DNA from: Desulfobacterales bacterium
Lineage (GTDB): Bacteria > Desulfobacterota > Desulfobacteria > Desulfobacterales > JAFDCJ01
Assembly (NCBI GenBank): GCA_020345785.1
Contig: CP070771.1
Span: 3,748,367 to 3,757,773 of the forward strand
Direction: 5' to 3'
Length of the DNA stretch: 9,407 nt
Both the position numbers and the translations under genes were made by a program. A model generated the notes under the pieces. That model had not been told where the DNA came from. It did not search any database and was given only the letters and a program-made list of their open reading frames with translations. The first letter of the stretch is position 1. Each line of letters starts with the position of its first letter. Below are positions 3,051-7,858 of this stretch, in pieces.

Positions 3051-3992
3051 TCACAAGCCACCCCGACCTATCGGGATGAGATTTGAAAAAGTTGTATCGG
3101 GGCCGGCGGGAGCATATTTTGTTGGTTCAAATTTAAACGATGCCGGTGGCTTATGAATAGAGAGAAAATATGGAGCATAAGATGGTGATGCCGCTGTTCT
3201 TACCTGGACATAATGGCCTTCTCTCCAGTTTATATTGGCCAATTTTTTTGATTTTCGATTCCAATTAAATCCTACGCCCCGAATTTTGTAATGTTTGACC
3301 TGGTCGATGGTAGAGACTTTTTCAAAAAAAAACGAATAAGATGGGTTTTTGGAATTTGTTGCAAAACAGGCGATCCAGATAAAAGTAGAGGGATCGATAC
3401 GAAATCCCAAATGTGGCGCATGGGTATTTTTGCGCTTCGACCTTTCAACATCAACTGCTCCTAAAATCATGTTGTTTTTTGGATTGTAGGTATTGATAGC
3501 GGCTATTGCATTGGCGGGTTTTTCGTTACGATCATCCCATTGTCGTATGATAACTTTTTGGGCAATGAGACCACCCTCTATTTCATAGGGTGAAAACCAG
3601 ATTTGGTCATAAACGATCGTTTTCCGGTTTTGAATCCATTTTCCTCTCCAGCGGCCTTGAAACCGGTGGAAAACATCGGCTCCCACATCCAACCGATTCC
3701 GTCTTTTGGGTGTTAATCCTAAAAGGATTTTTTCGATCTGATTGAATTCATCTTTCCGGAATTGACTAACGTACTTTTCTTTTATTTCTGAATAAAGTTG
3801 CCTTTTGAATGTCCTATAATCCTCAATGACTTGCTGGAAGGGGGGGTTGAATCCTGCATTCCGGTGGGCTTGTATTTGTTCCTTCAGGAGAATTTCGTAG
3901 TCCGAATCAACCTGATTGGCATTATTGCGAGAAGCACACCCGATTGATATAAATAGAAAAAAAAATGTTATGTGAATACTGTAGTGCCTCAT
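3051..3992 (-). CDS. Uncharacterised probable lipoprotein with calycin-like segment
   Basis: A 313-residue protein I do not recognise. It opens with a short basic N-terminus, a hydrophobic stretch 'ITFFFLFISIG' (8-18) and C19, which looks like a signal peptidase II lipobox. The -3 position is Ser instead of Leu, so the match is imperfect. A charged, probably helical region (about 30-100) follows. From about residue 108 the protein is rich in alternating beta-type residues; 'FHRFQGRWRGKW' (108-119) resembles the opening strand of lipocalin-like folds. Four of five Trp-rich segments lie after residue 110. The ribosome-binding site is weak. The gene starts 67 nt after the selenoperoxidase stop on the same strand, so they may share a transcript. 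It converges on the GNAT gene with only a 10-nt gap. Base composition is clearly AT-richer than the neighbours, which suggests transfer. Function unknown. Confidence 0.75.
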   Translation of the reverse strand: MRHYSIHITFFFLFISIGCASRNNANQVDSDYEILLKEQIQAHRNAGFNPPFQQVIEDYRTFKRQLYSEIKEKYVSQFRKDEFNQIEKILLGLTPKRRNRLDVGADVFHRFQGRWRGKWIQNRKTIVYDQIWFSPYEIEGGLIAQKVIIRQWDDRNEKPANAIAAINTYNPKNNMILGAVDVERSKRKNTHAPHLGFRIDPSTFIWIACFATNSKNPSYSFFFEKVSTIDQVKHYKIRGVGFNWNRKSKKLANINWREGHYVQVRTAASPSYAPYFLSIHKPPASFKFEPTKYAPAGPDTTFSNLIPIGRGGL

Positions 3993-4059
3993 ATGCTATC
4001 TTGGGATTTTCGGTTTGAGAATAAGATTTCCCACTTCTCTACCTAACTCTCCAGCTGTG

Positions 4060-4548
4060 TTAAATAGCTTGAAGCTCTTTTACAATATATGAAGCACTGC
4101 TTATGTCATCGACTTCCTTAAAACGAATAATACCGCTTTTATCAATAATTATAGTACCATATTCCCTGACTCCAAATAGTTTTGCAACCGATCTATTCGG
4201 TGTAGGAATAAGAGTAAAAGTAATCTTGTGAAAACTTTCGGAAATTTCTACATCATTTTGATTTCCGGCAGTTGCAAAAGCTATTACCTCGGCATCAAGG
4301 TTCTCGATTTCAGATATTTTTTCCTGCAGCTCACCGAGCCGCCTACTGCTAAGAGATCACTTACTGTCGGCATAAAAAACTAAGACAACATTCTTTTTTC
4401 CTTTAAAGTCACTCAATCTGACCTCGTCTCCAGAAACATCCGTGATACTGAAATCCGGAGCAGCCTTCCCCACTGCTGGAGATTGACCTGTTGTTGCGCA
4501 GCCTAACAAAAGCGCAAATACAACCAAAGTTAACGCGGTCTTTTTCAT
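4060..4548 (-). CDS. Peroxiredoxin-like lipoprotein, probable selenoprotein (in-frame TGA = Sec64)
   Basis: Reading through a single TGA (4357-4359) gives one continuous 162-residue protein ending at TAA 4060-4062. Start: ATG at 4546-4548 with AAGGAGGG 4 nt upstream. Residues 1-17 are a clear lipoprotein signal ending LLGC (lipidated C17). Residues 28-160 have the AhpC/TSA thioredoxin fold in order: 'KAAPDFSITD', 'VRLSDFKGKKNVVLVFY', 'RRLGELQEKI', 'AEVIAFA', 'SVAKLFGVREYGTIIIDKSG'. Relatives with the motif FYRGxWCPxC have the peroxidatic Cys five residues after Tyr and seven before the Leu of 'LGELQ'. The TGA sits exactly there (FYADSK-U-SLSSRRLGELQ). A SECIS-like hairpin follows. The resolving-Cys position is Ser, so the protein would have no other redox residue. 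Likely role: peroxide or disulfide reduction at the periplasmic face of a membrane. Alternative: a nonsense mutation. I consider that less likely, because the frame after the TGA is intact for 98 codons. Confidence 0.8.
4326..4342 (-). promoter_or_regulatory. Candidate bacterial SECIS hairpin for Sec64
   Basis: On the coding strand, 21 nt after the TGA, lies a 7-bp stem GCGGCUC / GAGCUGC (one G-U pair) closed by the triloop GGU. Bacterial SECIS elements sit just downstream of the UGA, with a small apical loop carrying a conserved G in its first two positions about 16-37 nt away. The well-studied E. coli fdhF element also presents GU in its loop to SelB. Spacing, loop and stem all match. The folding was done by eye. 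Confidence 0.7.
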
Positions 4549-4606
4549 TTTACCCTCCTTTTTATTCTGTACAAGCGTTCCACATTCACTTGTAACCATA
4601 GATAAA

Positions 4607-5152: not shown

Positions 5153-5208
5153 GGCTCTACAGCCTTCAAGCCTTCCAGCTTCGCAGCCTCATAGCTTCTT
5201 TGCCCTGG
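5153..5208. repeat. Array B: seven degenerate 8-nt repeats (AGCCTTCC type)
   Basis: Seven units in 8-nt register: GGCTCTAC, AGCCTTCA, AGCCTTCC, AGCTTCGC, AGCCTCAT, AGCTTCTT and TGCCCTGG. This is the same family and orientation as array A' (931-1042). No inverted partner lies nearby; the array stands about 60 nt beyond the 3' end of the beta-barrel remnant. Confidence 0.75.
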
Positions 5209-5268
5209 CTTCAGGACTCCGGAAATAATCAGGCAGTGGTTAAATGAGATGGTAAAGGTGGAAGGTTT

Positions 5269-5472
5269 TTAGAAGCCGAATGTCACGTATAGCATTGGCC
5301 CTGGAAGCTTAACGTTGTACTTATCTTCCTTATTCCCCGGATCATACTCAATTTTTGCGTGAAGGTACCTGAATCCTGCCCCAAAACCGGCATATTGAAT
5401 CGGCCAGTATTCGAGAAAAACAGTGCCAAAGCCCTCAGGGCGACGGCTGATCTTCAGCCTAACCGGCCGCAC
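5269..5472 (-). pseudogene. Remnant of an outer-membrane beta-barrel protein (C-terminal end only)
   Basis: The reading frame ends in 'GPMLYVTFGF' followed by TAA. A final beta-strand of alternating hydrophobic residues with a terminal Phe is the BAM-recognition signature of outer-membrane barrels. Before it, 'TVFLEYWPIQYAGFGAGFRY' looks like one more pair of barrel strands with a tight turn. Only about 55 residues are barrel-like (from about 5436 down). The piece overlaps the end of the deacetylase gene in another frame, has no ribosome-binding site or signal peptide, and the first dozen codons (from GTG 5472) look like read-through sequence. I read it as the 3' stump of a gene cut off by a rearrangement that brought the deacetylase next to it. 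It is probably not expressed. Confidence 0.55.
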
Positions 5473-6184
5473 GAATCCAGGGCATCAGGTAGTATTTGTA
5501 AAGTTTGAATAAATTCGCGCGGCGGCCCCAATTTACGCGGGGCAGGCGGAAGGGATCGATATTTGGCGAGACAAGTTTCTTTTTCTGGGTGGTGAATGCC
5601 AGTTTGTAACCGGCCTCTCTGACTTTTTGAGCGGCAGCTTGCGTTGTTCCACCCCACGGATATGCAAAATAGGGAACTTCTACGTTGAGAGATTCCTCCA
5701 GCAGATCTTTTGGCGGGCGTAATTCTTGCCACAGCTCATCGCCCTTCAGCCGGGTGAGATCACGGTGGTTGTAGCCGTGGGCGCCGACTTCAACCAGACC
5801 GGTTTTCAGGAGCGTCTTTAGCTGCTCGAGATCAAGGTGTCGGCGCTTGGGCCCCGAGGGGCGCTTCGAAAAATGGCTTTCGCGACCAATGAGACCGGCG
5901 ATAACAAAAATGGTAATCGGAATCGCCTGCTGTTTCAGATGTGCGAAAACGTTTTCGGAAATTGAAACGAGGGCGTCGTCAAACGTCAAGACGGCGGCTC
6001 GTTTAGGGATCGGTTTTTTCCCCTGAAGCCAGGCCATAAAATGGTTCATGGAAATAAATCGAACCCCCATACGGTCTAACCATCGCAGCTGGTACAAAAA
6101 CGCGTTGATATCGAGGGTGCCCCGCTGCTTTTCGCCGGGCGCCAGCGGAACCACATTATGGCAGGTATAAACGACACAGCTCAT
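5459..6184 (-). CDS. Polysaccharide deacetylase (NodB/CE4 family)
   Basis: A 241-residue CE4 (NodB homology) enzyme that removes N-acetyl groups from a glycan using a divalent metal. 'VLTFDDA' (65-71) is motif 1, with D69 the likely base and D70 a metal ligand. 'GAHGYNHRDL' (134-143) is motif 2, with H136 and H140 as metal ligands. 'YFAYPWGG' (172-179) matches motif 3, with Ala where Arg is often found. There is no signal peptide, so it either acts in the cytoplasm or is exported another way. The ATG at 6182-6184 overlaps the stop of the upstream GT2 gene (ATGA), which points to translational coupling; an in-frame ATG 15 codons earlier lies inside the GT2 gene. Pairing with a glycosyltransferase suggests deacetylation of the same exopolysaccharide or a lipid-linked sugar. 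It ends at TAG 5459-5461, near a broken beta-barrel gene. Confidence 0.9.
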   Translation of the reverse strand: MSCVVYTCHNVVPLAPGEKQRGTLDINAFLYQLRWLDRMGVRFISMNHFMAWLQGKKPIPKRAAVLTFDDALVSISENVFAHLKQQAIPITIFVIAGLIGRESHFSKRPSGPKRRHLDLEQLKTLLKTGLVEVGAHGYNHRDLTRLKGDELWQELRPPKDLLEESLNVEVPYFAYPWGGTTQAAAQKVREAGYKLAFTTQKKKLVSPNIDPFRLPRVNWGRRANLFKLYKYYLMPWIRAAG

Positions 6185-7738: not shown

Positions 7739-7858
7739 GAAATCCGGAAACCGAGGTGTCGGAAAGCCGGGAAACTAACAAGCTATAAAGCTGGCAGGCC
7801 GGGAAGCTGGGAAGCCAACAGGCTGGGAAACTGGGCGGCCGGGAAGCGGGGAGGCTGA
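7739..7858. repeat. Array C: 15 degenerate 8-nt repeats (GAAGCTGG type)
   Basis: Fifteen units stay in 8-nt register, for example GAAATCCG, GAAACCGA, AAAGCCGG, GAAACTAA, AAAGCTGG, CAGGCCGG, GAAGCTGG, GAAGCCAA, CAGGCTGG, GAAACTGG and GAAGCGGG. Same family and orientation as array A. It starts 24 nt after the Trm112-like stop codon and faces an inverted partner at 7885. Confidence 0.87.

Follow-up and report, generated by a model that had tools for sequence, protein, structure and literature searches.

A candidate gene for an exported, single-selenocysteine lipoprotein of the peroxiredoxin fold in Desulfobacterales

A gene for a predicted peroxiredoxin-fold lipoprotein, with one in-frame TGA

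We analyzed a stretch of 9,407 nucleotides from a Desulfobacterales bacterium (GenBank assembly GCA_020345785.1, contig CP070771.1, positions 3,748,367 to 3,757,773; here called the window), in which a first-pass annotation, made from the letters alone, had proposed that a TGA-interrupted gene encodes a selenocysteine (Sec, U)-containing lipoprotein of the AhpC/TSA (peroxiredoxin) kind. The features of the locus are given in Table 1. Translated with table 11, this gene appears as an open reading frame (ORF) of 80 amino acids (4599-4357), or of only 63 codons from the ATG at 4548, as that annotation had said of the gene-caller product. Because GGAGGG lies 4 nt upstream, the ATG at 4548 is the favored start, and a short product would more likely have 63 than 80 residues. 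The TGA at 4359-4357 is the single internal stop of the frame 4548-4060; reading through it yields a product of 162 residues, ending in TAA, with the motif FY-ADSK-U-SLSSRR-LGELQ around the presumptive Sec. With C substituted for U, as in all our searches, domain scans and structure modeling, Pfam AhpC-TSA covers residues 26-143, across the TGA, with E = 1.2e-19, and an AlphaFold2 model has a mean predicted local distance difference test score of 89.5, with a helix (65-76) that starts directly after residue 64. The AhpC-TSA/Redoxin fold expected of a peroxiredoxin was thus found by Pfam, by the model and by fold matches, and the description of the locus as an AhpC/TSA gene broken by a single TGA is borne out. 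The only Cys or Sec residues of the whole protein are Cys17 and U64.

Table 1. Features of the selenoprotein locus within the window.
Feature	Coordinates	Strand	Basis and remarks
Predicted selenoprotein coding sequence, 162 codons, one in-frame TGA, AhpC/TSA (peroxiredoxin) fold	4060..4548	-	Read-through translation, Pfam, AlphaFold2
TGA at codon 64, probable selenocysteine codon; opens the UxxS motif	4357..4359	-	TGA in L001 and L134; Cys/Trp in database relatives
Shine-Dalgarno sequence (GGAGGG), 4 nt ahead of the start codon at 4548	4553..4558	-	Sequence
Predicted signal peptide with lipobox LLGC	4498..4548	-	Sequence; likely lipidated at Cys17, the sole Cys of the protein
SECIS-like hairpin, 7 bp, GGU loop at 4335-4333	4326..4342	-	21 nt from TGA to loop; fits the SECIS model as described in PMC13188914
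Next same-strand gene, 313-aa predicted lipoprotein, possible partner	3051..3992	-	67 nt from the selenoprotein gene; no Pfam match

TGA, cysteine and tryptophan at the position of codon 64

A scan of a genome collection with the read-through protein found a homologue, L001, in another Desulfobacterales bacterium metagenome-assembled genome (MAG; CP070746.1). It is 57-61% identical and has TGA at the homologous codon (FYSRHG-U-PPC). When 389 genomes of the order were searched with a profile, one further homologue came up: L134, in genome G562, also with TGA there (FYARHV-U-PSC). Protein identity among the three TGA genes is 64% or less, and our close-family DNA comparisons rest on these three. 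Among 102 database relatives, tryptophan (W) occupies the alignment column of codon 64 in 26 and cysteine in 20, two of these being distant; Thr stands there in 5, Ser in 4, and Arg, Ile and Tyr in 1 each. Another 37 start just after this column and 7 stop just before it, six of these ending at FYADS-x and the seventh, P0103, being taken as outside the family. In all, 43 of the 102 are broken at or directly after codon 64. Homologues with Cys or Sec at residue 64, to which the first-pass annotation had looked for support, therefore exist: two by their TGA and 20 by their Cys.

The tryptophans very probably stand for TGA codons to which code 4 was applied in translation. In P0052, column 64 holds W where L134, 87% identical to it, has TGA. 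Two truncated proteins, P0061 and P0060, end at the break where the W-bearing P0002 and P0003, respectively, continue, and by eye these pairs differ at 1 and 4 of 63 residues. We built a midpoint-rooted tree of 50 rows, with column 64 kept (P0001, P0104, L134 and 47 of the 102 database hits; P0012, P0016, P0018, P0022, P0041, P0043, P0047, P0055 and P0057-P0103 were left out). The three observed-TGA rows fall on separate branches amid W rows, and the Cys rows form two separate groups, a layout that is the usual pattern of Sec/Cys exchange and, given the midpoint root, carries no direction of change.

In wider AhpC/TSA DNA, 27 distinct stretches from several phyla, the three close-family ones included, have TGA at column 64, and 26 of the 27 read UPxC. 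A second large AhpC/TSA group has its TGA three residues downstream, at the true peroxiredoxin position. In-frame TGA at this peroxidatic position (TGGU, TPVU) was seen in many relatives, e.g. L006, L015, L018, L110 and L113, which include several MAGs named Acidobacteria or Blastocatellia.

Selection and a SECIS-like hairpin after the TGA

We compared the codons on both sides of the TGA in the three gene pairs by the Nei-Gojobori method (NG86). After the TGA (98-107 codons), nonsynonymous over synonymous divergence (dN/dS) was 0.284/0.801, 0.357/1.112 and 0.216/0.807, or 0.355, 0.321 and 0.268; before it, the same pairs gave 0.255/0.898, 0.353/1.797 and 0.230/0.710 (range 0.20-0.32), with synonymous sites near saturation. 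Purifying selection acts on the codons behind the TGA about as strongly as on those ahead of it, and a dead C-terminus is very unlikely. The frame beyond the TGA contains no other stop, as the first-pass annotation had noted.

All three TGA DNAs share a hairpin of 7 bp with a 3-nt loop, which starts 15 nt after the TGA and spans 15-31 nt downstream. Its sequence is GCGGCUC-GGU-GAGCUGC in the window, GCAUCUC-GGC-GAGAUGC in L001 and GCAGCUC-GGU-GGGCUGC in L134, with core energies of -9.4, -8.1 and -9.2 kcal/mol, respectively; the fourth pair is altered on both sides (G-C versus U-A). The bacterial model of the selenocysteine insertion sequence (SECIS), as described in PMC13188914, has a loop of 3-9 nt, an upper stem of 4-16 bp, a minimum free energy of at most -7.5, and a G within the first two loop positions at 16-37 nt from the TGA. 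The window hairpin, with its 3-nt GGU loop, 7 bp, 21-nt distance and core energy of -9.4 kcal/mol, agrees with the model in that description. All three hairpins have a GGN loop 21 nt from the TGA, and those of L001 and L134 fit the model as well. Under random synonymous recoding with uniform codon choice, and for a hairpin picked after inspection, the identical hairpin arose in 0.6% (window), 4.2% (L001) and 1.1% (L134) of 200,000 trials each, and any model-conforming hairpin of at least 7 bp in 2.4%, 4.2% and 2.0% of 20,000 trials each. Of the 26 W rows, 25 retain the Gly of the loop codon, against 4 of the 20 Cys rows, a contrast for which the Fisher test ignores relatedness.

Selenocysteine machinery and genome context

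The genome of a relative, G001, encodes tRNA-Sec (75.2 bits, anticodon TCA), SelB (387 bits), SelA (612 bits) and SelD (361 bits), all over cut-off; among 14 control genomes, tRNA-Sec passed the same cut-offs in 5, SelB in 2, SelA in 1 and SelD in 2. Three SelD proteins exceed the cut-off in G001, and two of them (L164, L166) have an in-frame TGA of their own. In G562, SelA is present and SelB is partial, being broken by a contig end. The window also encodes a DUF4416 protein, whose five best matches (in G590, G547, G500, G526 and G578) all lie in the 8-genome family of G562; among the remaining members, G406 comes 14th and neither G464 nor G562 was matched. The placement is that of this single protein. 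G590 has a SelB over cut-off, 100% identical to a SelB named from an Olavius-associated proteobacterium; at E 1e-25, G590 gave no match to the selenoprotein family of the window. The C-terminal fragment of the window gene (P0018) and a fragment of a paralogue (P0090, from a Desulfobacterales bacterium) are listed on one contig of 7,205,039 bases, which makes the presence of two or more such genes in the genome probable.

The predicted 313-aa lipoprotein encoded next to the selenoprotein gene matched neither Pfam nor NCBIfam, and its gene was not seen beside L001 and L134. Third-position GC is 0.32 in the selenoprotein gene, 0.39 in this neighbor and 0.55-0.67 in the other six genes examined. 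The low value over 3051-4548, together with the patchy distribution of the family, is a hint of horizontal gain. Elsewhere in the window, degenerate intergenic repeats with 8-nt spacing occur at 7760-7855 and 5154-5209, with units like GGGAAGCC / GCCTTCAA, and a short frame at 5269-5532, with a TGA upstream, ends in ...PGPMLYVTFGF; by eye it resembles the end of an outer-membrane beta-barrel and may be a remnant.

Active-site position and location in the cell

The first-pass annotation had put the TGA exactly at the peroxidatic Cys. This does not hold: in an alignment with Mycobacterium tuberculosis AhpE, the peroxidatic Cys corresponds to Ser67, and codon 64 corresponds to a Thr three residues earlier. 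In place of the peroxiredoxin motif PxxxTxxC or PxxxTxxU, the window protein has A60-xxx-U64-xx-S67, and the catalytic Arg of AhpE (R116 by our own count) aligns with Tyr130. By its predicted sequence, Sec64 replaces the Thr of PxxxTxxC, which is the place of the leading Cys in a thioredoxin CxxC, and forms a UxxS motif; the model places it where the first active-site helix begins. The earlier comparison with relatives bearing FYRGxWCPxC stands insofar as Sec occupies the first CxxC-type position, and falls insofar as this was equated with the peroxidatic position of peroxiredoxins.

The N-terminus, MKKTALTLVVFALLLGC, shows by eye a basic start, a hydrophobic stretch and a lipobox ending in Cys, and we take it to be a probable lipoprotein signal. 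Among rows with an aligned N-terminus, 14 of the 22 with W and 7 of the 17 with Cys at column 64 carry the lipobox Cys. L001 is without a lipobox, which suggests ordinary secretion there. The predicted anchor is present in the window gene, as the first-pass annotation held, and varies by lineage in the family.

Alternative readings

If the TGA were read as tryptophan, by code 4 or by a suppressor, the W at column 64 in 26 of 102 relatives would follow directly. We consider this very improbable: all 33 Trp codons in the eight window genes examined are TGG, five of the seven other genes end in TGA (the lack of in-frame TGA in these genes is partly circular, as ORFs were called with TGA as a stop), and the DUF4416 model is complete, down to its own final position, ahead of the TGA that ends the gene it matches. 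The Cys found at column 64 in other relatives, the tRNA-Sec(TCA), SelA and SelB of G001, and the TGA of L134 opposite the W of P0052 all speak against it as well. Just as hard to credit is a nonsense mutation, an assembly error or a decaying gene, with the 63-residue lipoprotein as the sole product. Standard gene calling does stop at the TGA, and P0018 is listed as a separate protein, but the identical TGA occurs in three diverged genes, selection persists after it, and 43 of 102 relatives break at this codon or directly after it. The first-pass argument that a chance nonsense mutation is unlikely gains weight from the two diverged homologues with TGA at the identical codon.

Several observations weigh against decoding as Sec, or against its generality. 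The unconstrained 48-nt RNA favors a competing pairing in the window and in L001, the hairpin having a probability of 0.12 and 0.43-0.46, respectively; when the 9 nt directly behind the TGA were omitted, as if covered by the ribosome, every pair of the hairpin had a probability of at least 0.98 (window), 0.96 (L001) or 0.89 (L134). Energy z-scores are weak (-1.37, -0.87 and +0.74 for 45, 54 and 85 nt). The W rows and truncated rows are known as protein sequences only, and a minority of family rows has neither Cys nor W at column 64 (S in P0028, P0041 and P0045; R in P0023; I, T, Y and T in P0050, P0051, P0054 and P0056, respectively), so that Sec or Cys there is not universal in the family. 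We infer the Sec machinery of the window's genome from relatives; SelD was found in G562 only below cut-off, and no SelB of the 7,205,039-base contig was among the 120 of ~8,000 scored matches listed in two SelB searches. Even so, the selenoprotein call of the first-pass annotation is upheld by TGA in three genomes, Cys in relatives, a hairpin of the SECIS model, downstream purifying selection and complete machinery in one relative, and on this comparison we have little doubt that codon 64 is decoded as Sec.

What the Sec would do is less certain. A true selenium peroxiredoxin, in which Sec would take the peroxidatic role, is unlikely, given A60-xxx-U64-xx-S67 instead of PxxxTxxC and Tyr130 opposite the catalytic Arg of AhpE, even if peroxidase activity through another geometry is possible. 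A more serious, still tentative, candidate is a periplasmic protein of the ResA/SelL kind, acting as a thiol:disulfide reductase or in thiol repair and not as a peroxidase. Sec lies at the first CxxC position, L001 and L134 have UxxC, ResA is among the fold matches, and the two best NCBIfam matches, both under cut-off, are ResA and a SelL-related redox protein (NF040769; the second match, at 37.4 bits, far under the curated cut-off of 120 bits). In the clade of the window, however, the second Cys is Ser, and a classical dithiol cycle is therefore impossible. Overall, we find that an exported, Sec64-dependent, one-Sec lipoprotein of the peroxiredoxin fold explains the data best, and we hold this with good confidence; for a one-Sec peroxidase or reductase role our confidence is only moderate.

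Discussion

For this one-Sec lipoprotein, comparison suggests that SelB and tRNA-Sec would read UGA codon 64 as Sec, the hairpin 15-31 nt downstream acting as the SECIS. The signal peptide would direct the precursor to export, and lipid would probably be attached at Cys17, leaving the peroxiredoxin-fold domain to face the periplasm on a membrane anchor. Sec64 is then the only predicted redox-active residue of the mature protein. Its selenolate may reduce a peroxide or an oxidized thiol or disulfide partner and, because there is no resolving Cys, a one-Sec cycle with regeneration by an external thiol or redoxin is likely.

Tables in PMC13188914 include PF00578 selenoproteins with TxxU and with UxxC/UxxU, as well as an AhpC/TSA cd02970 selenoprotein with UxxS, attributed there to a 2007 paper on an Olavius symbiont. 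With the peroxiredoxin-like thiol:disulfide oxidoreductases (UxxC/UxxU) listed there, the window protein shares the Pfam domain and Sec at the first position; it differs from them in being exported with a lipobox, in lacking the RGxWUPFC motif, and in having Ser67 for the resolving Cys that L001 and L134 keep. The cd02970 protein (MDX2448127.1), likened here by its table description only, shares the AhpC/TSA fold and UxxS. Selenium peroxiredoxins (PF00578, PxxxTxxU) share the fold and the Pfam family; the Sec of the window protein lies three residues earlier than theirs, and the active-site Pro, Thr and Arg are absent. We therefore read the window protein as an exported one-Sec variant of an already known kind, the peroxiredoxin-like PF00578 selenoproteins. 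Our literature searches brought up no lipid-anchored one-Sec clade.

It seems reasonable to suppose, if with some reserve, that a clade of Desulfobacterales has a membrane-anchored, exported redox protein with Sec as the sole redox residue and neither a peroxiredoxin site nor a CxxC, hidden so far as stop or Trp calls and swapped with Cys at least twice. Annotation programs often split such a gene in two or misread its Sec codon, and the apparent Trp of 26 listed relatives, very probably Sec, is a database artifact of this sort. The finding adds an exported, single-Sec member to the peroxiredoxin-like selenoproteins. It suggests a way for anaerobes to put selenium chemistry to use on their cell envelope, where a thiol from outside the protein would have to do the regenerating.
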